From positions 3,162,001-3,226,000 of the forward strand of contig NC_019902.2 in NCBI RefSeq assembly GCF_000321415.2: 64,000 nucleotides of DNA. Reading direction: 5' to 3'. The notes under the pieces are model-generated. The model had not been told where the DNA came from, did no database searches, and saw nothing but the letters and a program-made list of their open reading frames with translations. The position numbers and the translations under genes are program-made. Source of the DNA: Thioalkalivibrio nitratireducens DSM 14787. Lineage in GTDB: Bacteria > Pseudomonadota > Gammaproteobacteria > Ectothiorhodospirales > Ectothiorhodospiraceae. This document shows, piece after piece, positions 27,541 to 40,978 of the stretch (within the stretch, counting starts at the first letter, position 1; each line of letters begins with the position of its first letter).

Positions 27541-27711
27541 ATGAACCCGGCTGCTGGCGTGCTGGTCGTGCTGCTGGGAGTCCTGCTGTTCCTGTCACCG
27601 GTCCCGATGTGGGTCGCTTCCGTCGCCCCGGCCTGGTGGTGGCCGTTCGTGGCCTGGGCCGTGCTGATCGCGACCATCGCCTGCCACGTCCTCGGCCGCC
27701 GTGACCCTTAG
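27541..27711 (+). CDS. Small two-helix membrane protein upstream of the sensor kinase
   Basis: The 56-residue frame encodes two hydrophobic helices (VLVVLLGVLLFLSPVPMWVASV and WWWPFVAWAVLIATIACHVL) and a short polar end. GGGAGAG precedes the ATG at a good distance. It overlaps the GTG start of the large sensor kinase by 11 bases in a different frame, which suggests translational coupling. Small membrane proteins are often found before CbrA-like kinases, but I cannot assign it to a named family. A longer frame upstream is open but unsupported. Confidence 0.6.
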   Translation: MNPAAGVLVVLLGVLLFLSPVPMWVASVAPAWWWPFVAWAVLIATIACHVLGRRDP

Positions 27712-30631
27712 CCTCGGCCTGCTCTACACCGTCGGTGTCTTCTACCTGGCGCTGCTGTTCGGGATCGCGTTTGTCGCCGAACGCAGCCGCACGTTCGGCC
27801 GCATCGCGGGCAACCCGTGGGTCTACACGCTATCGCTGGGCGTGTACGCAACGTCCTGGACGTTCTACGGCAACCTGGGGTTTCTCGAGGACCACGGCTA
27901 CCTGTACCTGACCATCTACCTCGGGGTCACGCTGGCCTTTGCCGCGACACCGTGGCTGCTGCGGCCGATCCTGCAACTCGCCCGCGAACACCAGCTCACC
28001 TCGCTTGCGGATCTGTTCGCGTTCCGGTACCGCAGCACGCTGACCGGGCCGCTGGTCGCGCTGTTCATGCTGACCGGGATCCTTCCGTACATCGCGCTGC
28101 AGATCAAGGCGGTGGCAGAATCGGCCGCGGTCCTCACCGCCGACACGCCGCCGCACCTGCTGGCGCTGACCTTCAGCGCCACCATCGCGCTGTTCGCGAT
28201 CCTGTTCGGCGCCCGCCACATCTCGCCGCGGGAGAAGCATTCGGGGCTGGTCATCGCGATTGCGTTCGAGTCGCTGGTGAAACTCCTGGCGCTGCTGATC
28301 GTTGCCGCCATCGCCCTGTACGCGGTCTTCGGTGGCCTGTCGGGTCTCGACGCCTGGCTCGACCGGCACCCGGAGGCGGTCAGCGCACTGTACGAGCCGG
28401 TCACCGGCGGCGGCTGGTACAGCCTGATGGTGCTCGCCTTTGCCGCCGCCTTCCTGCTGCCGCGGCAGTTCCACATGCTGTTCACCGAGAACATCAATCC
28501 ACAGGCGCTGAACCGGGCGGCCTGGGGATTCCCGCTGTTCCTGCTGTTGCTGAACCTGCCGATGCCGGTGCTGTACTGGGCCGGCCAGGCCGCGGGACTG
28601 ACCGACAATCCCAACTACTACGCGCTGGGGCTCGCGGGCTGGCTCGAGTCTCCGGCCCTCGCGCTGCTGGTCTTCATCGGCGGCGTGTCGGCCGCCAGCG
28701 CGATGATGATCGTGACCACGCTGGCGCTGGCGAACATGGGCATGAACTACCTGTCCCTGCCCGCACGCCTGCGCGAACGCCAGAGCCTGCCGGCAAACCT
28801 GTACCGCAACCTGCTCTGGGGCCGGCGCATCTGGATCGTGCTGATCATCGCGCTGGGCTACGGTTTCTACGGCCTGCTGCAGGTCGTCGAGGGTCTGGCC
28901 CAGCTCGGCCTGATTTCCTTCGCCGCGGTGACCCAGTTCCTCCCCGGACTGATCGGGCTGATGCTGTGGCCGCGGGCAACCCGCGTCGGCTTCCTGCTGG
29001 GGCTCGTTGCCGGCATCACCGGCTGGTTCTTCGCGCTGGTCGCGCCGCTGCTCGCGAACGCCGGAATCTGGGCGTCGGCGCCACGACTCCAGCACGCGAT
29101 GGGCGCCGACGGCCTGGATGTCTGGACCTTCGCCCTGACGCTCAGCGTCGGCACCAACGCGTTGCTGTTCGTGCTCGGATCGATGTGGTCCCGGCCGAAT
29201 CAGCAGGAGATCGAGGCCGGCCAGGCCTGTTGTCCACGCGAGCCGTTCTACACCAGCGTCGACCTGCCTTTGGCCCGGGACGTGCCCGAGATGGAGGCGG
29301 AACTCGCCGCGACACTGGGTACGATGCCCGCCCGTCACGAGATCGAACGCGCACTGGACGACCTCGGCCTGCCGCGCCACACCCGCTCGCGGCGCGATCT
29401 GCAGCGCCTGCGCGAGCGTATCGAACGCAACCTCTCGGGGCTGCTCGGACCGGTGCTGGCGCGGATGATCGTCGACCGCCACCTGCGCCTGGACGCTGCC
29501 GGACGCTCCAGCCTCAGCGAGAGCCTGCGCCGGATCGAGCAGCAGCTGGAGGATGCTCGGCTGCCACTCACCGGGCTGGCGGCGGAACTCGACGCGCTGC
29601 GCCGTTTCCACCGGCAGATCCTGCACGAGTTGCCGTTGGGTGTCTGCAGCGTGACCGCCGGCGGCGAGATCACCGGCTGGAACCACGCGTTGACGCAACT
29701 GACCGGCGTCCCGACCGAGAACGCGGTGGGCCAGGTCGTCGAACGCCTGGAACGCCCCTGGGGCGGGTTGCTGCAGGCCTTTCTCGACAGCGACGACCGG
29801 CAGCTCTACAAACTGAACCTGGAAACCCGCCACGGTCCGCGGCGCCTGAACCTGCACAAGTCCTCGCTGGAGCTCGCGAGCGGACGCCGCGAAGGCCACG
29901 TGATCCTGATCGAGGACGTAACCGCCCGGGTGCAACTGGAGAACGAGGTCGCACACAGCGACCGGCTGGCCTCGATCGGCCGTTTCGCGGCCGGCGTCGC
30001 ACACGAGATCGGCAACCCGCTGGCCGGGATCGCCTCGCTCGCACAGACGCTGCCGCTGGAGGACGACCCCGACGAGATTCGGGACATTGCCGACGACATC
30101 ATCGACCAGACCCGGCGAATCAACGCGATCGTGCAGTCGCTGATCGCGTTCGCCCACTCGGACACACCTCCACGCAGCCGCTTCGAGCCGGTAGATCTCG
30201 ACGACGTGATCTCGGAAGCGATCCGCCTCACCCGGCTGGCCGGGCGCAAGGATCTGCACTATGCGCCAGTCGGGATCCAGGGGCTGTCGGTGGAGGGTGC
30301 ACGCGCCAAGCTGCTGCAGGTGTTCATCAACCTGCTGACCAACGCGGAACAGGCCTCGCCGCCCGGTGCCACGATCCGGATCCGCGCACAGGAGACCGGC
30401 GCCCGGGTGCGGGTCGACATCATGGACCAGGGGCCGGGCATCGAGCCTTCGGCACTGGACCGGCTGTTCGAGCCCTTCTTCACGACCAAGCCCGCCGGAC
30501 AGGGCACCGGGCTCGGGCTGCCGGTCGCCTACAGCATTGTGCAGGACCACGGTGGTAGCCTAATGGCTGCGAACGCACCGGAAGGCGGTGCAATGATGAT
30601 CCTGACACTGCCCCTCGGCAGAAAGGCATGA
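27701..30631 (+). CDS. CbrA/CrbS-type sensor histidine kinase with sodium/solute-symporter domain
   Basis: The 976-residue protein starts with an SLC5-type (SSS) transporter domain of about 12-13 transmembrane helices (residues 1 to about 490). A helical linker follows (about 500-640), then a PAS domain (about 640-745), a HisKA domain with H768 (GVAHEIGNPLAG), and a HATPase with N box LTNAEQ and G motif GQGTGLGLPVA. This is the CbrA/CrbS architecture, which senses small carbon compounds (histidine, acetate or the like) at the inner membrane. The start is GTG at 27701. The response regulator gene overlaps its stop by 4 bases. The symporter and acetyl-CoA synthetase genes downstream suggest it senses acetate or related acids, or the cell's carbon state. 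Confidence 0.93.
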   Translation: MTLSLGLLYTVGVFYLALLFGIAFVAERSRTFGRIAGNPWVYTLSLGVYATSWTFYGNLGFLEDHGYLYLTIYLGVTLAFAATPWLLRPILQLAREHQLTSLADLFAFRYRSTLTGPLVALFMLTGILPYIALQIKAVAESAAVLTADTPPHLLALTFSATIALFAILFGARHISPREKHSGLVIAIAFESLVKLLALLIVAAIALYAVFGGLSGLDAWLDRHPEAVSALYEPVTGGGWYSLMVLAFAAAFLLPRQFHMLFTENINPQALNRAAWGFPLFLLLLNLPMPVLYWAGQAAGLTDNPNYYALGLAGWLESPALALLVFIGGVSAASAMMIVTTLALANMGMNYLSLPARLRERQSLPANLYRNLLWGRRIWIVLIIALGYGFYGLLQVVEGLAQLGLISFAAVTQFLPGLIGLMLWPRATRVGFLLGLVAGITGWFFALVAPLLANAGIWASAPRLQHAMGADGLDVWTFALTLSVGTNALLFVLGSMWSRPNQQEIEAGQACCPREPFYTSVDLPLARDVPEMEAELAATLGTMPARHEIERALDDLGLPRHTRSRRDLQRLRERIERNLSGLLGPVLARMIVDRHLRLDAAGRSSLSESLRRIEQQLEDARLPLTGLAAELDALRRFHRQILHELPLGVCSVTAGGEITGWNHALTQLTGVPTENAVGQVVERLERPWGGLLQAFLDSDDRQLYKLNLETRHGPRRLNLHKSSLELASGRREGHVILIEDVTARVQLENEVAHSDRLASIGRFAAGVAHEIGNPLAGIASLAQTLPLEDDPDEIRDIADDIIDQTRRINAIVQSLIAFAHSDTPPRSRFEPVDLDDVISEAIRLTRLAGRKDLHYAPVGIQGLSVEGARAKLLQVFINLLTNAEQASPPGATIRIRAQETGARVRVDIMDQGPGIEPSALDRLFEPFFTTKPAGQGTGLGLPVAYSIVQDHGGSLMAANAPEGGAMMILTLPLGRKA

Positions 30632-31941
30632 CACGCATCCTCCTGGTCGACGACGAGGCCGCGATCCGCCGGGGTGTGCGGCGCTACCTGGAACACCACG
30701 GGTTCGAGGTCGCACTGGCAGAAGATCTCGGCGCTGCCCGAATCCGCGCCGCGGAGGAACCCTTCGATCTGCTGCTGGCCGACCTGCGCCTGCCCGACGG
30801 CGAGGGCACCACACTGATCGGGGAGTTCCCGAACCTGCCGACGGTGATCATGACCGCCTACGCCTCGGTACCATCGGCGGTGGAGGCGATGAAGTCGGGG
30901 GCGATCGACTATATCGCCAAGCCTTTCGATCACGATGCTCTGCTGCTGACCCTGCGCGCGGCGCTGCGCAGCAGCACCCGCAGGGAGCCGCCTGTGCGCC
31001 CGCCAACGGAGACCGGCCCGGAGCACGGGCTGCTCGGGCACAGCGCGGCGATCGAGACCCTGCGCCAGCAGATTCGCCGGGTCGCGGCGACCCACTCGAC
31101 GGTGCTGATCCGCGGCGAATCGGGTACCGGCAAGGAGGTCGCGGCACGCGCGATCCACGCGCTGAGCCCGCGGGCTGACAAGCCATTCGTCCCGGTGAAC
31201 TGCGCGTCGATTCCGGAGGGACTGGTCGAAGCCGAACTGTTCGGACACGCCCAGGGCGCCTATACCGGCGCGGTCAAGGCGCGAGCCGGTCTGGTCGAGG
31301 CCGCCGACGGCGGCGTGCTGTTCCTCGACGAGATCGGTGAACTCGCGCCCGCCGCCCAGGCCCGGCTGCTGCGGGTGCTGCAGGAGGGCGAGATCCGCCC
31401 GGTCGGCGCAAACCAGGCGCGGCGGGTCGATATCCGGCTGCTGGCCGCGACCCATCGGGACCTCGAGGCGATGATCGAGGCGCAGGCGTTCCGGGCCGAT
31501 CTCTATTACCGCCTGCGGGTGCTGGAAATCCGCATTCCGCCGCTGCGCGAGCGGCTGGAGGATCTGGAGCGGCTGGTTCCACACTGTCTGCGCGAACTGG
31601 AACGGCGCGTCGGCCGCGAGGGGCTGACCCTCAGCGACGACGCCCTCGCGCGCATGCAGGCGTACGACTGGCCGGGCAACGTTCGGGAGCTGAAAAACGC
31701 GCTGGAACGAGCGGCGGTGCTGTCCGAGGACAGCCGGATCGAATGGGAGCATCTCGGGCTCGACAGCCCCGCAGTCCAGCCCGAGGGCCAACCCCGCGGC
31801 GCCAGCCTGAACGATTACTTCCGGCGGTTCGTACTGGAAAACCAGACCCACATGAACGAGACCGAACTCGCCCGCGCCCTGGGGATCAGCCGCAAGACTC
31901 TCTGGGAACGCCGCCAGCGCGAACACCTGCCCAGGCCCTGA
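30628..31941 (+). CDS. NtrC-family sigma-54-dependent response regulator (CbrB/CrbR-like)
   Basis: The 437-residue protein has a receiver domain (residues 1-118) with phosphoacceptor D52 in LLLADLRLP, an AAA+ domain with Walker A GESGTGKE, the sigma-54 contact loop GAYTGA (the tyrosine variant of GAFTGA) and Walker [13 protein letters not shown], and a Fis-type HTH at the end ([20 protein letters not shown]). Enhancer-binding proteins of this kind open sigma-54 promoters using ATP. It overlaps the sensor gene by 4 bases (ATGA). The sigma-54 promoter at 32150, 210 bases downstream, with GTTAC palindromes before it, is its most probable target. Confidence 0.95.
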
Positions 31942-32050
31942 GCGCCGCCGCTGAAGGCTGGCTTTGGCGTCCCGGGTAGCGGATTTCGGTACGCGGCCGA
32001 CATCGATGACCCGTGCGCCAAGCCCCCCGCCGCCGCGCCGCAGATCCCGG

Positions 32051-32104
32051 CGTTACGGACCGTAACGTCCTCCCGTTACGCGGCGTAACACGTGCCGCGT
32101 AACG
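32051..32104 (+). promoter_or_regulatory. Upstream activating sequence: two GTTAC-N5-GTAAC palindromes plus a half-site
   Basis: Two perfect palindromes share the same half-sites and spacing: GTTAC-GGACC-GTAAC (32052-32066, extended to 8-base arms CGTTACGG/CCGTAACG) and GTTAC-GCGGC-GTAAC (32075-32089). Their centres are 23 bases apart, about two helical turns, so bound dimers would lie on the same DNA face. A further half-site GTAAC follows at 32099-32103. They lie about 50-100 bases upstream of the sigma-54 promoter, the usual enhancer distance. From memory, CbrB sites in Pseudomonas also use TGTTAC/GTAACA half-sites, but with a longer spacer. Confidence 0.78.
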
Positions 32105-32149
32105 GGCAAGAACACCTGCGCAACCCATTGTTTCAGCTAGCAACATGTC

Positions 32150-32166
32150 TTGGCACGGCCATTGCT
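32150..32166 (+). promoter_or_regulatory. Sigma-54 (RpoN) promoter
   Basis: TTGGCACG-GCCA-TTGCT matches the -24/-12 consensus (TTGGCACG-N4-TTGCW) at every position. GG at 32152-32153 and GC at 32164-32165 have the exact 10-base spacing. Transcription would start around 32177, leaving a leader of about 27 bases before the first DUF294 gene. The upstream palindromes and the NtrC-type activator gene just before it make the assignment strong. Confidence 0.92.
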
Positions 32167-32204
32167 GCTGGTCGCACAATCCCTGCTGACCTGCCAGGCT
32201 GCCC

Positions 32205-34079
32205 ATGTCCGATGCGCTCGACACCACCCGGGAATTCCTGAACGCCCACGCGCCGTTCGACCGGCTCGAACCGGACGCACTGGAGTTCCTGCTGCCGCGC
32301 CTGGAGTCCCGTTTCTACGCCAGCGGCGAGCGCATCACCGACCCCGATGCCGGCCCGGCACGGCGCTTTCACATCATCCGCCAGGGTCGGATCCGCGGGG
32401 AGAATCCCAGCGAGGACGAGCAAGTCTCCGGCAAGGCCTGGGAACTGGTGCCCGGCGAGAGCTTTCCGATCGGCGCGCTGCTCGGACGGCGTCCGGTGCA
32501 TACCGTGCATCGGGCGCTTGAAGACACGCTCTGCCTGGAACTCTCGCTCGAGGACTTCGACCGCCTGCGCGCCCGCTCGCCGGTCTTCAACGATTTCTGC
32601 TCGCGCCGGCTGGCCAGCCTGCTCGACCGACTCCACCAAGGACTGATCGCAGGCCAGCTGGGTCACTCCGGCGCCAGTGGACAGCTGAACACGCCGCTGG
32701 GCGCACGGGTTACCCGCGAGCCGGTCACCTGCAGCCCGGACACCCCGCTGCGCGCTGCGCTGACCACGATGCGCGACCAGAAGGTCGGCTCCATCGTCGC
32801 GGTGGATGGTGAAGGACGACCGCTGGGCATCTTCACGATGACCGACCTGCTCTCGCGGGTGACGCTCGAGGAACGGCCGCTGGATACGCCGCTGCGACAG
32901 GTGATGACACCGGACCCGATCGCCCTTCCGGACTCGGCGTTGGGTTTCGAGGGCATCGAGACCATGGCCGATCACGGCATGAAGCACATCTGCGTGGTCG
33001 CGAACGAACGCCTGGTCGGAGTGCTCGGCGAGCGCGACCTGCTGAGCTCCCACCCGCTGACGCTCGACCGGCTGGTGCGCGGGATCCTTCGTGCCGATGC
33101 CGTGTCCACGATCGCCGACCACCTGCGCGAGATGCCACGCCTGATCGGTGCGGTGATCCACCAGGGCGCCGAGGCCGACCAGATCCTGCGCCTGATCACG
33201 CGCATCAACGACCATGCCACACGGCGCGTGCTGACGCTGCTCCGCTCACGCCACGACATCGCGGACATCGGTTTCACCTGGCTGGCCTTCGGCTCGCAGG
33301 CGCGCGAGGAACAGGCGCTGACGACCGACCAGGACAACGGAATCCTGTTCCGCTGCGAGCCGGGACAAGAGGACGAGACCCGGGAACGCCTGCTGCCGTT
33401 CGCGCAGGGGGCCAACCAGGCGCTGGCGGAATGCGGGTTCGAACTCTGCCCCGGAGACGTGATGGCGGGGAACCCCGAGTGCTGCCTGAGCGGCGCCGAA
33501 TGGGAGCGGCGCTTCAGCCGCTGGATCGATCAGGGGACGCCGGAGCATCTGCTGAAAAGCTCGATCTTCTTCGATCTGCGCGCGATCGACGGCGATTCAG
33601 GTCCGGTGGAGAAGCTGCGCTCCGAGCTGCTGCACAAGACGGCGTTCAACAGCCGCTTCCGGCGCCAGATGGCGGCCAACCAGATGCGATTCCGGCCGCC
33701 GCTGGGGCTGTTCGGCGAGATCCGCAGCGGCTCCGACGGCATCAACGTCAAGCTGCATGGGCTAACGCCGTTCGTCGATGGCGCGCGGGTGATGGCGCTG
33801 GCCGCGGAACTGCCCGCGACCCGTACCCACGAGCGCCTCGACCAGGCGGTGTCGGCCGAGATCCTGCGCGAGGACGACGCCCACGACTACCACGCCGCAC
33901 TGCGCTACCTGCAGATGCTGCGCCTGCGCAGTCAGCAGCAGGCCCTGGCAGAGGGCCGCGAAGGCGGCAACCGCATCCGCCCGGAGGAACTCGGCGCCCT
34001 CGAGGGCCGTGTGCTCAAGGAGGCCTTCCGGCAGGCCCGCAAGCTGCAGGGGCAGCTTGCCGTTCAGTACCAGCTCTGA
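32205..34079 (+). CDS. DUF294 putative nucleotidyltransferase with cNMP-like and CBS domains, copy 1
   Basis: The 624-residue protein has an N-terminal cyclic-nucleotide-binding-like domain (residues about 10-135), two CBS domains (about 160-290), a GlnD-like nucleotidyltransferase domain with the signature FGSQAREEQALTTDQDNGILF (DUF294; the aspartates are the metal ligands), and a C-terminal helical domain (about 470-620). DUF294/GlnD-like proteins are thought to transfer nucleotides to proteins, or to be inactive signal sensors; no substrate is known. It is the first gene behind the sigma-54 promoter. A similar protein (copy 2) flanks the symporter on the other side. It probably couples the carbon or energy state to the transporter, which is inference. 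Confidence 0.88.
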   Translation: MSDALDTTREFLNAHAPFDRLEPDALEFLLPRLESRFYASGERITDPDAGPARRFHIIRQGRIRGENPSEDEQVSGKAWELVPGESFPIGALLGRRPVHTVHRALEDTLCLELSLEDFDRLRARSPVFNDFCSRRLASLLDRLHQGLIAGQLGHSGASGQLNTPLGARVTREPVTCSPDTPLRAALTTMRDQKVGSIVAVDGEGRPLGIFTMTDLLSRVTLEERPLDTPLRQVMTPDPIALPDSALGFEGIETMADHGMKHICVVANERLVGVLGERDLLSSHPLTLDRLVRGILRADAVSTIADHLREMPRLIGAVIHQGAEADQILRLITRINDHATRRVLTLLRSRHDIADIGFTWLAFGSQAREEQALTTDQDNGILFRCEPGQEDETRERLLPFAQGANQALAECGFELCPGDVMAGNPECCLSGAEWERRFSRWIDQGTPEHLLKSSIFFDLRAIDGDSGPVEKLRSELLHKTAFNSRFRRQMAANQMRFRPPLGLFGEIRSGSDGINVKLHGLTPFVDGARVMALAAELPATRTHERLDQAVSAEILREDDAHDYHAALRYLQMLRLRSQQQALAEGREGGNRIRPEELGALEGRVLKEAFRQARKLQGQLAVQYQL

Positions 34080-34127: not shown

Positions 34128-34388
34128 ATGACACAACAGGAAAGCAGGGCCGCCTACTGGCGGGCCAACCTGCGACTGCTGACCATCCTGCTGACCATCT
34201 GGTTCGTAGTGTCCTTCGGCCTCGGCATCCTGCTGTCGCAGCAGTTGAACCACATCAGCCTCGGTGGCTATCCGCTCGGCTTCTGGTTCGCCCAGCAAGG
34301 CTCGATCTACACCTTCATCGTGCTGATTTTCGTTTACGCCTGGCGCATGAGTGTGCTGGACCGCAAGTTCGACGTACACGAGGACTGA
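34128..34388 (+). CDS. DUF4212 small subunit of sodium/solute symporter
   Basis: The 86-residue protein has two transmembrane helices and the signatures AYWRANLRLLTILLTIWFVVSF and GYPLGFWFAQQGSIYTFIVLIFVYAWRM, typical of DUF4212. Such subunits always precede an SSS transporter of the VC_2705 type, which starts 7 bases downstream here. It probably assembles with it in the inner membrane. AAGGAGTAACGCC precedes the ATG. Confidence 0.93.
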   Translation: MTQQESRAAYWRANLRLLTILLTIWFVVSFGLGILLSQQLNHISLGGYPLGFWFAQQGSIYTFIVLIFVYAWRMSVLDRKFDVHED

Positions 34389-34395
34389 GACAGCC

Positions 34396-36171
34396 ATGGA
34401 TCTCAAGACACTGAGTTTGTTGGTCGTCGGTGCGACCTTCGCGATCTACATCGGCATTGCAATCTGGGCCAAGGCGAGCAGCACCAGCGAATTCTACGTG
34501 GCCGGCAAGGGCGTGCCGCCGGTCCTGAACGGCATGGCCACCGCGGCGGACTGGATGTCCGCTGCGAGCTTCATCTCGATGGCCGGCCTGATCGCGTTCC
34601 TCGGCTTCACCGGGGGCGCGTACCTGATGGGCTGGACCGGGGGCTACGTGCTGATGGCGCTGCTGCTGGCCCCCTACCTGCGAAAGTTCGGGAAGTTCAC
34701 GGTGCCCGAGTTCATCGGCGACCGTTTCTACTCGAAAGCCGCACGGATCGTCGCGGTGATCGCGCTGCTGGTGATGTCGATCACCTACGTGATCGGGCAG
34801 ATGCGCGGAGTGGGCATCGCCTTCTCGAACATCCTCGAGGTAAGGCTGGAGTACGGCCTGGTCACCGGCATGGCCGTGGTGTTCATCTACGCGGTGTTCG
34901 GCGGAATGAAGGGCATCACCTACACACAGATCGCGCAATACGTGATCATGATCTTCGCCTACACCGTGCCGGCCGTGTTCATCGCAATCCAGCTGACCGG
35001 AGCGCCACTGCCGCAGATCGGCCTGGGGTCGACGCTTGCGGGCGAGGACACCTACCTGCTGGAGGCACTCGACCGGACGCTGGTGGATCTCGGCTTCGCG
35101 GCCTACACCTCGGTTGCCGGCATGAGCATGCTGAACATGTTCCTGCTGACGCTGGCGCTGATGATCGGCACCGCCGGCCTGCCCCACGTGATCATCCGCT
35201 TCTTCACCGTGCCGCGCGTGCGCGACGCGCGCAAGTCCGCCGGCTGGGCGCTGGTGTTCATCGGCATCCTGTACACCACTGCGCCCGCGGTCGGTGCGAT
35301 GGCGATGTACAACCTGATCAAGACCGTGCAGCCCGGCGAGATCGGGGATCCGCAGGGAAACCTGGTGATCGACGAGCGTCCCGACTGGATGCTGCGCTGG
35401 GAACGCACCGGCCTGCTGGAGTGGGAAGACAAGAACGACGACGGCCGTCTGCAGTACTACAACGACGCCAACCCCGAGTTCGCCGAAATGGCGCGCGAGG
35501 AATTCGGCTGGGAGGGCTCCGAATTCACCCGGATCGACCGCGACATCATGGTGCTCGCGAACCCGCAGATCGCCAACCTGCCAAACTGGGTGATCGCGCT
35601 GGTCGCGGCGGGAGGGATCGCGGCGGCGCTGTCGACCGCTGCGGGCCTGCTGCTGGCGATCGCGTCGGCGATCTCGCATGACCTGCTGAAAGGCGTGTTC
35701 ATGCCGAAGATCTCTGAGAAACGGGAACTCCTCGCGGGACGCGTCGCGATGGGGGCCGCGATCCTGTTCGCGGGCTACCTGGGTCTGAATCCACCCGGCT
35801 TCGCGGCCGAGGTGGTCGCCCTGGCCTTCGGACTTGCCGCGGCGAGCCTGTTCCCGACGCTGATGATGGGGATTTTCGTCAAGCGGATGAACCGCGAAGG
35901 CGCGATCGCCGGAATGCTGGCGGGCCTGATCAGCACCCTGTTGTACATCTTCCTGTACAAGGGCTGGTTCTTCTTCCCCGGCACCAACGTGTTCCCCGAC
36001 ACCGCCGAATACTGGCTGTTCGGCATCAACCCGACCGGCTTCGGTGTGATCGGTGCGGTGCTGAACTTCGTCGTCGCCTACCTGGTGATGAAGGTTACCA
36101 AGGCGCCGCCGGAGCATATCCAGCACCTGGTGGAGGACGTGCGTGTGCCGCGCGTCGGAACGGGTTCGTAA
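34396..36171 (+). CDS. Sodium/solute symporter, VC_2705 type (probable acetate/carboxylate transporter)
   Basis: The 591-residue transporter belongs to the SSS (SLC5) family, with about 13 transmembrane segments. It has the family features GKGVPPVLNGMATAADWMSAASFISMAGLI near the N-terminus, and a large hydrophilic insertion (about residues 310-390, ending DIMVLANPQIANLPNWVIALVA) found in the VC_2705 subgroup. It imports a small carboxylate with sodium. Acetate is the best guess because acetyl-CoA synthetase and a CrbSR-type system are nearby, and because the ActP acetate permease is a relative. The substrate has not been shown from the sequence. A terminator-like hairpin follows the stop. Confidence 0.9.
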   Translation: MDLKTLSLLVVGATFAIYIGIAIWAKASSTSEFYVAGKGVPPVLNGMATAADWMSAASFISMAGLIAFLGFTGGAYLMGWTGGYVLMALLLAPYLRKFGKFTVPEFIGDRFYSKAARIVAVIALLVMSITYVIGQMRGVGIAFSNILEVRLEYGLVTGMAVVFIYAVFGGMKGITYTQIAQYVIMIFAYTVPAVFIAIQLTGAPLPQIGLGSTLAGEDTYLLEALDRTLVDLGFAAYTSVAGMSMLNMFLLTLALMIGTAGLPHVIIRFFTVPRVRDARKSAGWALVFIGILYTTAPAVGAMAMYNLIKTVQPGEIGDPQGNLVIDERPDWMLRWERTGLLEWEDKNDDGRLQYYNDANPEFAEMAREEFGWEGSEFTRIDRDIMVLANPQIANLPNWVIALVAAGGIAAALSTAAGLLLAIASAISHDLLKGVFMPKISEKRELLAGRVAMGAAILFAGYLGLNPPGFAAEVVALAFGLAAASLFPTLMMGIFVKRMNREGAIAGMLAGLISTLLYIFLYKGWFFFPGTNVFPDTAEYWLFGINPTGFGVIGAVLNFVVAYLVMKVTKAPPEHIQHLVEDVRVPRVGTGS

Positions 36172-36286: not shown

Positions 36287-38143
36287 ATGGACGCGGAATT
36301 ACGGGAGATACGCGATTTCCTGGCCGCGAGCCCGGATTACGCGGTGTTGCCGGAGCCGGCGCTGGACCGCCTGCCCCGGCAGTTGGTCGTACGCTACCTG
36401 CGCCGGGGCAGCCCGTTCCCGCCCGTTCCTGCGGACGCCGGCGACCTCTGGCTGGTGCGCACCGGAGCGATCGACCTGCGCACGCGGCAGGAAGAACTGC
36501 TGGACAAGCTGGGCGAAGGCGACGTGTTCGCGGTTCCCGGCGACGACGGCGCGGAGGTCATCGGACGAGTCGTCGAGGATGCGCTGTTCTACGTGTTGCC
36601 AGCGCCGGAGGCGCGCGAACTGCGGCGCCAGCACCCGGAGTTCGCCGACCGTTTCGATCTCGCCAGCCGCCGCCCGCTGCAGCGGGCGCTGGCGGCCTTC
36701 CAGGGTTCCGCCGGCCGTGGCGACAGCGTACTGACCGTTTCGGTGGGAGAACTCGTGACCCGTGCTCCGGAGCATATCGGTCCCGACGCGACCATCCAGG
36801 ACGGGGCTCGCCACATGAGCGAGCAGGAGGTTTCGGCGCTGCTGGTGATGGCGGACGACGAACTGATCGGAATCGTCACCGACCACGACCTGCGCAAACG
36901 CTGCCTCGCGACCGGGCGTTCGCGCCAGGAACCGATCGGCAGCATCATGAGCAGCCGGCTGCAGAGCGTAACACCGGAGACACCGGCATTCGAAGCGCTG
37001 CTGCTGATGTCACGACTGGACATCCACCACCTGCCGGTTCTTGCCGGCACTCAGCCAGTGGGGCTGATCTCCACCACGGACCTGATTCGTCACCAGGGCA
37101 CCAATGCGGTCTATCTCGTACGCGACATTCGCCGCTGCGAGTCGGTCGCCGCCCTCAGGCGCGTGACGCAGGCCCTGCCGGAACTGCAGATCCACCTGGT
37201 GCAATCCGGGGCCACCGCGTTGCACCTGGGCCAGGCGGTGACGGCGGTGATCGACGCGCTGACGCGACGCCTGCTGAAACTGGGCGTGGCCGAACTCGGA
37301 ACGCCGCCCGTGCCTTTCGCCTGGCTCGCCTGCGGATCCCAGGGACGACGCGAGCAGACGGTTCACACCGACCAGGACAACGCACTGATCTATGCCGACA
37401 CCCGCGATGCCGGCACCGATGGATACTTCCAGCGTCTGGCCGAGTTCGTCACCGACGGACTTGACCAGTGCGGCATTGTCTACTGCCCGGGCGAGGTCAG
37501 CCCGCGCTCGCCGCACTGGCGGCGCACGGTCATCGGCTGGCGCGACGAATTCGCCCGCGTGCTGCGCAGTCCCGACCGCAAGGCGGCCATGCTCGCCGCG
37601 CATTATTTCGACCTGCGGGTGGTGCACGGCGACGCGCTGCTGTTCGAACCGCTGCGCGCCGAAGCCCTGCGTTACGCCGTCACGCGGCGCCCGTTCCAGG
37701 CGCAGCTCGCCGAGAATGCCCTGGACTCCCCGCCCCCGCTGGGCTTCTTCCGGCAACTGGTGCTGATCCAGGGGGGCGATCAAGCCGATACGCTGGACGT
37801 GAAAAAGCAGGGCCTGCTGTTGGTCACCGCCCTCGCTCGGGTCTATGCACTGCAGGCCGGGGTTCCGGGTCTGCACACCCTGGACCGTCTGCGCGGCGCG
37901 GTGGAAACCGGCGTAATCGGCCAGGACGACGGCGCCAATCTCTGCGGGGCCTACGAGACCCTGGCCTCGCTGCGCGCCCAGCATCAGACGCGCCAGATCA
38001 AGCGGGGCGAGCGCCCCGACAACTTCATCCCGCCCAGAACCCTGTCGCCGCTGGAACGCGGCCACCTGAAGGATGCGTTCGGAGTGATCGCGACGATGCA
38101 GAAGAACCTGCGCGCGCGCCTGGTCGGCCGGGGAACGCCATGA
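36287..38143 (+). CDS. DUF294 putative nucleotidyltransferase with cNMP-like and CBS domains, copy 2
   Basis: The 618-residue protein has the same plan as copy 1: a cNMP-like domain (residues about 1-130, more degenerate), two CBS domains (about 150-275; IGIVTDHDLRKRCLATG, VGLISTTDLIRHQG), the nucleotidyltransferase signature ACGSQGRREQTVHTDQDNALIYAD and a C-terminal helical domain. Both metal-binding aspartates are present, so it may be active. The exonuclease gene overlaps its stop by 4 bases (ATGA), so the two products are translationally coupled. Together with copy 1 it brackets the symporter genes. Its function is unknown; AMP- or ATP-sensing via CBS and modification of a partner is a reasonable model. 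Confidence 0.88.
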   Translation: MDAELREIRDFLAASPDYAVLPEPALDRLPRQLVVRYLRRGSPFPPVPADAGDLWLVRTGAIDLRTRQEELLDKLGEGDVFAVPGDDGAEVIGRVVEDALFYVLPAPEARELRRQHPEFADRFDLASRRPLQRALAAFQGSAGRGDSVLTVSVGELVTRAPEHIGPDATIQDGARHMSEQEVSALLVMADDELIGIVTDHDLRKRCLATGRSRQEPIGSIMSSRLQSVTPETPAFEALLLMSRLDIHHLPVLAGTQPVGLISTTDLIRHQGTNAVYLVRDIRRCESVAALRRVTQALPELQIHLVQSGATALHLGQAVTAVIDALTRRLLKLGVAELGTPPVPFAWLACGSQGRREQTVHTDQDNALIYADTRDAGTDGYFQRLAEFVTDGLDQCGIVYCPGEVSPRSPHWRRTVIGWRDEFARVLRSPDRKAAMLAAHYFDLRVVHGDALLFEPLRAEALRYAVTRRPFQAQLAENALDSPPPLGFFRQLVLIQGGDQADTLDVKKQGLLLVTALARVYALQAGVPGLHTLDRLRGAVETGVIGQDDGANLCGAYETLASLRAQHQTRQIKRGERPDNFIPPRTLSPLERGHLKDAFGVIATMQKNLRARLVGRGTP

Positions 38144-38847
38144 TCCGCCCCGGCCCGTGGATCTTCTGCTGGCGCCGCCGGCGGCTGGCCCTGCGCCTGC
38201 CCGATATCCCGCTGCGAACATACCTGAAACGCAGGATGCCGGGACTGTGCGGCGATTGCCGCGACACGCCATTCCTGGCGGTGGATCTCGAGACCACTGG
38301 CCTGAACCCCGCGCGCGATCAGATCCTGAGCATCGGCTGGGTCGCGATGGACGGCCTGTCGATCCGCCTGGAGACCGCACGACAGACCTGGGTGCGCCCG
38401 TCGCAAGCGATTCCGGAGGCCAGCGCCGTCATTCACCGTATCACCGACGACCAGGCGGCCAGGGGAGGCAGTCTCGGCTCCGCTCTGGCACTGTTGCTGC
38501 GGGCGCTGGAAGGACGGGTGATGCTGGCCCACCACGCGGCCGTGGAACTGGGTTTCCTGGACCGCGCCTGCGTGAGCGAGTACGGATACCCGTGCATGAT
38601 TCCAACCGTGGACACGCTGCGCCTGGCGCAGGAACAACTGGCCCGCAGGCAGGAAGCGGTCCGCTCGGACGGGCTGCGCCTCGGGGCCCTGCGCGAGCAG
38701 TTCAACCTGCCTCCCTACCGCTCGCACGACGCATTGAGCGATGCACTGGCTGCAGCCGAGCTGTTCTGTGCCCAGGTCAGCCACCGCGCGGGCGACGGTC
38801 CGCTGCCGCTGCAGCAGGTGCTGCACCGCCCGGGTGCCCTGTGGTGA
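38140..38847 (+). CDS. DnaQ-like 3'-5' exonuclease (DEDD family)
   Basis: The 235-residue protein has the DEDDh exonuclease motifs: [24 protein letters not shown] (Exo I, D and E), [18 protein letters not shown] (Exo II) and [17 protein letters not shown] (Exo III, H and D). It resembles the epsilon subunit of DNA polymerase III but is a shorter, separate paralog of the kind often coded after DUF294 genes. A basic N-terminal stretch ([11 protein letters not shown]) precedes the domain. It may hydrolyse RNA, DNA or nucleotide-linked products made by the partner. Its link to the symporter is unexplained. Confidence 0.88.
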
Positions 38848-39019: not shown

Positions 39020-40978
39020 ATGAGTGACACGATCGAATCCGCGCTGCACGAGAACCGGCACTTCCCGCCGCCAGCCGACTTCGTGGCCAACGCCCGCCTG
39101 AAACCGGAGGAGGCCGAGGCGCTGTACCGCAAGGCCGAGGAGGATCACGAAGGCTTCTGGTCCGACCTCGCGCGGGAAAAGATCACCTGGCACAAGGAAT
39201 TCAGCGTCGGACTCGACGACAGCCGGGCCCCGCACTACGCCTGGTTCACCGACGGCCGGATGAACGTCTCCTACAACTGCATCGACCGGCATCTCGACCA
39301 GCGCGGTGACAAGCCCGCGATCATCTTCGAGGGCGAGAACGGCGATACGCGCACCTACACCTACCGGGATCTGTACAACGAGGTGGGCAAACTCGCGAAC
39401 GGGCTGCGCGCGAGCGGCGTGAAGAAGGGCGACCGCGTGGTGATCTACATGCCGATGATCGCCGAGGCCGTGATCGCGATGCAGGCCTGCGCGCGCATCG
39501 GTGCGATCCACTCGGTGGTCTTCGGCGGCTTTTCGGCAGACGCACTGCGCGACCGCATCGACAACTCGGGCGCCGAGGTCGTGATCACCGCCGACGGCGG
39601 AACCCGTGGCGGCCGCGTGGTCTCGCTGAAGAAGACCACGGACAAGGCGCTGGAGATCAGCAGCGGTACGGTCCGAAACGTGATCGTCTGCAAGCGGGCC
39701 GGCAACGAGGTCAATATGACCGAGGGCCGGGACGTTTGGTGGCAGGATCTGGTGGCCGATCAGCCCGCCGACTCCGAGCCGGAATGGGTGGAATCCGAGC
39801 ACCCGTTGTTCCTGCTCTACACCTCGGGTTCGACCGGCAAGCCCAAGGGGATCCAGCACGCGAGCGCGGGCTATCTGCTGAACACGATCGTCACCAACGA
39901 ATGGGTCTTCGACCTGCACGACGACGACGTCTTCTGGTGCACCGCCGACGTCGGCTGGGTCACCGGGCACTCGTATGTCGCCTACGGACCGCTGGCGATC
40001 GGGGCCACACAGGTGGTCTACGAGGGCGTGCCGACCGTTCCCGACGGCGGGCGCTGGTGGAAAATGTGCCAGGCACACGGGGTGACCGTGTTCTACACCG
40101 CACCGACCGCAATCCGCGCGCTGATGAAACTCGGTGACGAGTTTCCCGGCCAGTACGACCTGTCGAAACTGCGCCTGCTGGGCACGGTCGGCGAACCGAT
40201 CAACCCTGAGGCCTGGATGTGGTACTACCGGACGATTGGCGGCGAGCGCTGCCCGATCGTGGACACCTGGTGGCAGACCGAAACCGGCGCTCACATGATC
40301 GCGCCGCTGCCCGCGGTAACCACGCTGACGCCCGGTTCCTGCACCCGCCCCCTCCCGGGAATCGTCGCCGACGTGGTGAACGAGGAAGGCGAGAGCCTGG
40401 GGCCGGATCAGGGAGGCTTCCTGGTGATCAAGAAGCCCTGGCCATCGATGCTGCGCACGGTCTGGCAGGACGACAACCGCTACAGGTCGACCTACTGGCC
40501 GAAGTTCGGCGGCAAATACTATCTCGCCGGTGATTCCGCACGGCGCGACCCGGACGGGAACTTCTGGATCATGGGCCGGATCGACGACGTGCTGAACGTC
40601 TCCGGCCACCGGCTCGGAACGATGGAGATCGAGTCGGCGCTGGTCGCGCACGAGGCCGTCGCCGAGGCTGCCGTGGTCGGGCGGCCGCACGACGTGAAGG
40701 GCGAGGCCATCGTCGCGTTCGTGATACTGAAGGACGAGCGGCCCACCGGAACCGCAGCCGAGGAAATGGTGAAGGCGCTGCGCGACTGGGTCAGCGAGCA
40801 TATCGGCCCGATCGCGAAACCCGACGACATCCGCTTTGCCGATGGCCTGCCCAAGACCCGTTCCGGTAAGATCATGCGCCGCCTGCTGCGCTCGATCGCG
40901 AAGGGCGAGGAGATCACATCCGACACCTCCACGCTGGAGAACGAGGCCGTGGTCACCCAGTTGCAGGGCAAGGCGTAG
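39020..40978 (+). CDS. acs: Acetyl-CoA synthetase
   Basis: The 652-residue enzyme activates acetate to acetyl-CoA with ATP. Motifs in order are [20 protein letters not shown] (P-loop), [12 protein letters not shown] (adenylate contact) and [23 protein letters not shown] (hinge). The acetylation-controlled lysine is in [11 protein letters not shown] (K617). The length is exactly that of E. coli Acs. TGGAGG precedes the ATG. It lies 172 bases downstream of the exonuclease gene, so it is either the last gene of the sigma-54 operon or has its own promoter. In Vibrio, a CrbSR pair controls acs, which fits the local context. Confidence 0.97.

Follow-up and report, generated by a model that had tools for sequence, protein, structure and literature searches.

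A predicted CbrB-dependent sigma-54 promoter with paired palindromic sites ahead of an acetate-type operon in Thioalkalivibrio nitratireducens

The closest described system is the CbrAB/crcZ pathway of Pseudomonas. The consensus for its CbrB sites is given as TGTTAC-N12–14-GTAACA-N15–19-GTAACA and called non-palindromic (PMC6296734; PMC8871633). CbrB itself is reported to be a monomer in solution, and is described as a peculiar activator that acts on non-palindromic subsites (PMC6296734). A small gene, cbrX, sits ahead of cbrA and overlaps its start (PMC8871633), and 12 positions of CbrA have been named that form the histidine pocket or path together with the Na2 site (PMC13022988). Two abstracts describe CbrAB as exclusive to Pseudomonads; CbrA and CbrB homologues in a sulfur oxidiser are mentioned in PMC4136832. 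Two other described switches have sensors of the SLC5 type. The CrbS/R regulon of Pseudomonas fluorescens, whose DNA site is the ACTU inverted repeat, includes acetate genes, among them actP and a gene for a putative signal-transduction protein (PMC5715377). CrbR is reported as a LuxR-type regulator using a sigma-70 promoter. In the RpuS/RpuR pyruvate switch of Sinorhizobium fredii an SLC5/STAC sensor is reported to control a monocarboxylate symporter, with an imperfect direct repeat as the DNA site. No open-access paper on CbrAB in Thioalkalivibrio was found, and among the open-access papers listed for CbrB with Marinobacter and CrcZ, or for CbrA/CbrB with Ectothiorhodospira or Chromatiales, titles and abstract openings pointed to no work on the promoters described here.

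Thioalkalivibrio nitratireducens is a soda-lake sulfur bacterium. The window analysed here is a stretch of 64,000 nucleotides of its genome, and the features discussed are collected in Table 1. Gene content was read from the open reading frames of the window with domain and similarity matches. On the 5′ side of the enhancer–promoter region the gene order is dksA-gluQ-cbrA-cbrB. On the 3′ side lie genes for a cNMP/CBS/DUF294 protein (duf294a), a DUF4212 protein, a VC_2705-family symporter, a second DUF294 protein (duf294b), an exonuclease and an acetate–CoA ligase (acs). The initial annotation had placed a DUF294/symporter operon behind the promoter; this holds, except that the DUF4212 gene intervenes between the two. 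The symporter is probably of the acetate/monocarboxylate type, judging from family names.

Table 1. Features of the cbrAB–duf294a region (coordinates are those of the window)
Feature	Coordinates	Strand	Basis or remark
CbrX-like small ORF	27541..27711	+	overlaps cbrA start; likeness in position and hydrophobic sequence only
cbrA, SLC5-STAC-PAS-HisKA-HATPase sensor kinase	27701..30631	+	domain matches, alignment
cbrB, sigma-54-dependent response regulator, REC-AAA+-HTH, GAYTGA loop	30628..31941	+	domain matches, tree
Distal GTTAC-N5-GTAAC palindrome, predicted CbrB dimer site	32052..32066	+	pattern; N5 = GGACC
Proximal GTTAC-N5-GTAAC palindrome, predicted CbrB dimer site	32075..32089	+	pattern; N5 = GCGGC
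Extra half-site GTAAC	32099..32103	+	within 14-pair inverted repeat (predicted hairpin) 32072-32106
CAACCCATTGTTTC, IHF-like element between enhancer and promoter	32121..32134	+	weak consensus match, 6/9
Predicted sigma-54 promoter TGGCACGGCCATTGCT	32151..32166	+	GG 32152-32153, GC 32164-32165; start expected ~32176
duf294a, cNMP_binding-CBS-DUF294-DUF294_C protein	32205..34079	+	first gene past promoter; domain matches
DUF4212 small protein	34128..34388	+	between duf294a and symporter
VC_2705-family sodium/solute symporter	34396..36171	+	acetate/monocarboxylate type from weaker matches
duf294b, second CBS-DUF294 protein	36287..38143	+	domain matches
3′–5′ exonuclease, RNase_T family	38143..38847	+	start approximate
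acs, acetate–CoA ligase	39020..40978	+	domain and similarity matches

The NtrC-family activator and CbrA/CrbS-type sensor noticed upstream of the promoter are, on the tree, the domains and the gene order, a CbrB orthologue and its CbrA, and the pair is thus assigned as the orthologue of Pseudomonas CbrAB. Residues 2-595 of CbrA align to PDB 10ED over the SLC5 and STAC domains (E 8e-146), and are followed by PAS, HisKA and HATPase domains. The order dksA-gluQ-cbrA-cbrB is common to the window, P. veronii and M. nauticus. In a tree of 37 rows, all 33 CbrB sequences group together to the exclusion of four other NtrC-type rows (100/100), and the HTH of CbrB hardly differs between Thioalkalivibrio and Pseudomonas. 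The best CbrB matches in 17 genomes have 52–56% identity, and each lies after a cbrA; cbrA was found in 37/37 genomes searched and cbrB in 17/17. The sigma-54 contact loop reads GAYTGA in all nine CbrB rows of the host genus, and GAFTGA or GSFTGA in the other 24.

The promoter element had been said to match the –24/–12 consensus at every base, and it is the sole match to TGGCACN5TTGCW with no mismatch in the window. Both perfect GTTAC-N5-GTAAC palindromes are present as reported, and their position at an enhancer distance is borne out, with centres 70 bp (proximal) and 93 bp (distal) upstream of the –24 G. The centre-to-centre distance of 23 bp (19–23 bp across the family) corresponds to 2.2 helical turns, so that their placement on the same face of the helix is only approximate. 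The further half-site GTAAC also exists, as part of a predicted hairpin (Table 1), and is degenerate already in the nearest relative (G011). Classical enhancers of NtrC-family activators are palindromic dyads, and the arrangement as a whole is a predicted sigma-54 promoter with an NtrC-type enhancer.

Within the genome of 4,002,350 bases the perfect GTTAC-N5-GTAAC pattern occurs at these two sites only; a reversed control pattern gives three matches. Allowing one mismatch adds 20 sites (22 in all, against 42 for the reversed control). A sigma-54-like element (8/11 letters) at 45–129 bp accompanies only one of these 20, and there an open frame runs through the entire fetched stretch. The one-mismatch sites thus include no convincing second CbrB target in this genome.

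Conservation was analysed in a family set of 37 genomes. A complete or almost complete duf294a orthologue was recovered from 34 of them; the other three genomes (G008, G018 and G019) are all incomplete. A search for relatives that had lost the palindromes but not the regulator and the operon gave none: all 34 regions upstream of duf294a keep at least one perfect palindrome before a –24/–12 element. The proximal site is perfect in 33/34 regions, the distal in 21 and both in 20. Over 32 distinct contexts, the half-sites of the proximal palindrome carry 2.0 bits in nine columns and 1.8 bits in the tenth; its N5 columns carry 0.1–0.8 bits. The commonest flanks in the family are T before and A after, giving TGTTAC-N5-GTAACA; the window sites lack at least one of these two flanks. 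The distance from the proximal centre to the –24 G is 61–63 or 70–74 bp, two sets about one helical turn apart, and a YTG[AGT][TA][TC] core, weakly IHF-like, lies 24–26 bp upstream of the –24 G in 27/34 regions. Sites and promoter were taken in each region as the best match in a given zone (for the promoter the best GG-N10-GC), a procedure that favours matches; the perfect scores and a shuffled control, with a perfect site in 0/20000 stretches of similar size, guard against this bias.

The sites are also kept where the regulator genes lie elsewhere. Fifteen genomes of the same genus have cbrA on a different contig or no closer than 58 kb, with cbrB adjoining it in the four such loci examined. 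Every one of the 15 keeps a perfect proximal site; the distal site is perfect in two and degenerate in 13, and two perfect dyads are therefore not required.

In the class as a whole, a tandem N5 pattern was found in 7/369 genomes, in each case before a duf294a orthologue; the control pattern was found in one genome. A single N5 site with a sigma-54 element occurs in 25/369 genomes. Nine of these have it before duf294a, one before DUF4212-symporter, four more beside cbrA (on its divergent side; G345 has both positions) and 11 elsewhere, and since the reversed control matches nine genomes most of the 11 are probably chance. Among 16 genomes reached through duf294a loci, the N5 site with a sigma-54 element occurs in 6/8 outside Pseudomonas and Marinobacter (one of the six, G425, being by its coordinates the same genome as G035), always before duf294a, and in 1/8 Pseudomonas or Marinobacter genomes. 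In addition, 44 of 80 named loci were examined. Twenty-two of these lie outside Pseudomonas, Marinobacter and six distant records, 11 of them, ten from Thioalkalivibrio and one from Ectothiorhodospira mobilis, in genomes already in the family set of 34; a site with at most one mismatch is present in 21 of the 22 and perfect in 20, leaving one with only a one-mismatch site and one with none, and two lack a scored promoter. An N5 site with at most one mismatch was found at none of eight Marinobacter, eight Pseudomonas/Halopseudomonas and six distant named loci. In four genomes (G410, G412, G413 and G414) acs follows cbrB with a one-mismatch N5 site between them (GTCAC-N5-GTAAC in three, GCTAC-N5-GTAAC in one) and a sigma-54-like element in 3/4. 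The Lysobacteraceae genome G410 keeps cbrAB and duf294, the latter located behind acs with no N5 site of its own, and a genome-wide search of G410 and G413 for the perfect N5 and sigma-54 pattern gave no match.

The locus shares with Pseudomonas CbrAB/crcZ an orthologous sensor and regulator, the half-site TGTTAC/GTAACA, and a predicted sigma-54 promoter directly 3′ of cbrB with an IHF-type element between. The two differ in that the Pseudomonas sites follow the order F-N12–14-R-N15–19-R (F and R being the two half-site orientations) and drive the CrcZ sRNA, while in the window an acetate-type operon lies downstream of two N5 dyads. The initial annotation gave CbrB a spacer longer than N5, correctly on the review consensus. 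In six Pseudomonas/Halopseudomonas loci GTTAC is followed by GTAAC at +19, +21 or +22 and by the next GTAAC +22 or +23 further on; four Pseudomonas loci fit the published layout 3′ of cbrB, and in P. neustonica and Halopseudomonas the F–R gaps are two or three bases longer. CrcZ lies 3′ of cbrB in all six. The suggestion that the N5 dyad defines a distinct class of binding site therefore stands for the arrangement, the Pseudomonas spacing being longer both in the consensus and in these loci, and fails for the sequence, since neither half-site nor HTH sets it apart from Pseudomonas CbrB. The pattern GTTACN12-15GTAACN15-19GTAAC has no match in the T. nitratireducens genome. Across the class this asymmetric spacing is not enriched, being outnumbered by the matches of its reversed control, and the class-wide search hence informs only on its absence from this genome. 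An Rfam search of 31900-32300, up to E 1, gave no match, and no CrcZ-type sRNA was found next to cbrB there.

In Marinobacter, GTTAC, GTTCC and GTAAC follow one another at ten-base steps 3′ of cbrB, a layout that is perhaps intermediate. CrcZ-like RNAs were also seen 3′ of cbrB in two genomes of this genus (L165 890-1298 and L167 849-1248); they score 53 and 50 bits, below the Rfam cut-off of 95, with E ~1e-11 to 1e-10. In the CbrB tree, with site types labelled from the loci examined, the Pseudomonas–Marinobacter clade (100/99) lies inside a larger clade (99/99) that also holds N5 users. On account of this nesting the N5 dyads are probably older than the Pseudomonas layout.

The 12 pocket positions of CbrA read YSWAFSYKFSHF in P. 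veronii and YTWTYIYKAARF in the window, a difference at 7/12. In five Marinobacter kinases beside the DUF294/symporter operon, called CrbS-like from homology and neighbouring genes, they read YTWTFIYKAARF. The pocket of the window CbrA thus agrees at 11/12 positions with the CrbS-like kinases and at 5/12 with P. veronii, taken as representative of the histidine-binding Pseudomonas CbrA, against the overall identities of ~35% (residues 3-444) and 45% (1-971) respectively. T53 together with R257 is found in 11/11 CrbS-like kinases. Among CbrA rows the combination is missing from those of Pseudomonas, Marinobacter and Amphritea (0/3) and present in all the others (15/15). The match to kinases linked with acetate points to a small carboxylate, and we put acetate or a similar compound as ligand of the SLC5 domain at nearly, though not quite, an even chance. 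The presumed RpuS has T53 also, and a histidine at position 257. A second SLC5-type kinase, whose pocket resembles the CrbS type, occurs in family genomes G033, G035 and G036 (L274–L276).

We propose that CbrB and sigma-54 control the duf294a operon, with a probability of about 0.85. Phosphorylated CbrB, encoded just upstream, would bind both N5 dyads as dimers and, from positions about two helical turns apart, form an active AAA+ assembly. A DNA bend at the IHF-like element in between would let CbrB remodel the sigma-54 polymerase at –24/–12. This would switch on duf294a-DUF4212-symporter, and probably duf294b-exonuclease-acs as well, a set that would serve uptake and activation of acetate or a short monocarboxylate. 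Through its SLC5 domain CbrA would sense acetate, or another small carboxylate like it, as the signal. As Pseudomonas CbrB is a monomer in solution, dimer binding is not a given.

The palindromes could instead be bound by another sigma-54 activator or transcription factor, for which the separation of cbrA from the sites in 15 relatives would speak. We regard this as improbable, because the half-site is that documented for Pseudomonas CbrB, read by a nearly identical HTH, because cbrB or cbrA adjoins the site in many lineages, and because both genes were found in every genome searched for them. The inverted repeats might alternatively act in RNA, as a hairpin or terminator ending the cbrAB transcript. 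The segment 32040-32125 does fold unusually well (z –4.76), and over 20 regions the two N5 spacers complement each other at 49/100 positions, a value reached in 0/5000 shuffles (kinship uncorrected). This complementarity is complete in G006 and G028. Yet a search of 31900-32260 found no terminator-like site, the sites are kept where cbrA is elsewhere, the half-site letters themselves are fixed beyond what pairing would need, and the distances to the –24 element are conserved, all of which makes this RNA function very improbable.

The third alternative is that a LuxR-type CrbR drives the operon from a sigma-70 promoter, as in Pseudomonas and Vibrio. It draws on the similarity of the target genes to acetate genes reported as CrbS/R targets in Pseudomonas. 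The CrbS/R switch also has in common with the locus an SLC5-type sensor, with CrbS-like kinases sharing the pocket residues. The ACTU core, taken from listed ACTU sites, was scanned upstream of duf294 loci; it is present at 10/12 Pseudomonas/Halopseudomonas loci, 1/15 Marinobacter loci and 0/34 family regions, and is absent ahead of duf294a, duf294b and acs in the window. A sigma-70-like promoter was sought in 31900-32260 and none was found, the T. nitratireducens genome (G000) gave no second SLC5 kinase at E 1e-60, and the partner gene adjoining cbrA encodes the sigma-54-type CbrB and not a LuxR-type protein. We regard this alternative as very improbable. A LuxR-like HTH was also seen by eye in the open reading frame after the presumed RpuS kinase, another point in which that switch differs from the present locus. 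Control of duf294 appears to have changed regulator between these lineages, CbrB in one and CrbR in the other; with the ACTU core at just 1/15 Marinobacter loci, this exchange is documented for Pseudomonas only.

Taken together, sensor, sites and output suggest a tentative history, to which we assign somewhat less than even odds. CbrAB may have begun as a transceptor switch for acetate (or a small carboxylate) that controlled an uptake and activation operon by way of paired N5 dyads and sigma-54. The Pseudomonas–Marinobacter line would then have rebuilt the pocket (T53, I74, A248 and R257 giving way to other residues, with histidine binding in Pseudomonas), turned the dyads into asymmetric subsites, placed the CrcZ sRNA next to cbrB as output, and passed the acetate operon to the LuxR-type CrbS/R. 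The locus would on this account be a likely ancestral state of CbrAB, and it offers a simple promoter for biochemistry, together with a testable idea both of the CbrA ligand and of the joint rewiring of sensor, DNA sites and output. CbrAB orthologues reach several gammaproteobacterial families beyond the Pseudomonads, with palindromic predicted enhancers and a metabolic operon as output, and the N5 dyads form an arrangement that contrasts with the non-palindromic subsites described for CbrB.

Some further sites lie near cbrA itself. A single perfect N5 site is located ~175–200 bp before cbrA in three genomes of other genera of the family (L064, L069 and G036:C30:10476), which suggests autoregulation. 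A CbrA-like protein is found in 62 plasmid records, five of which were looked at. In L211, L224 and L225 (G189, G192 and G302) an N5 site and a sigma-54-like promoter are divergent from cbrA, and face a gene whose product, judged by eye, resembles a substrate-binding protein of the ABC type and carries a TAT-like signal; this gene is a possible second CbrB target in these three genomes.
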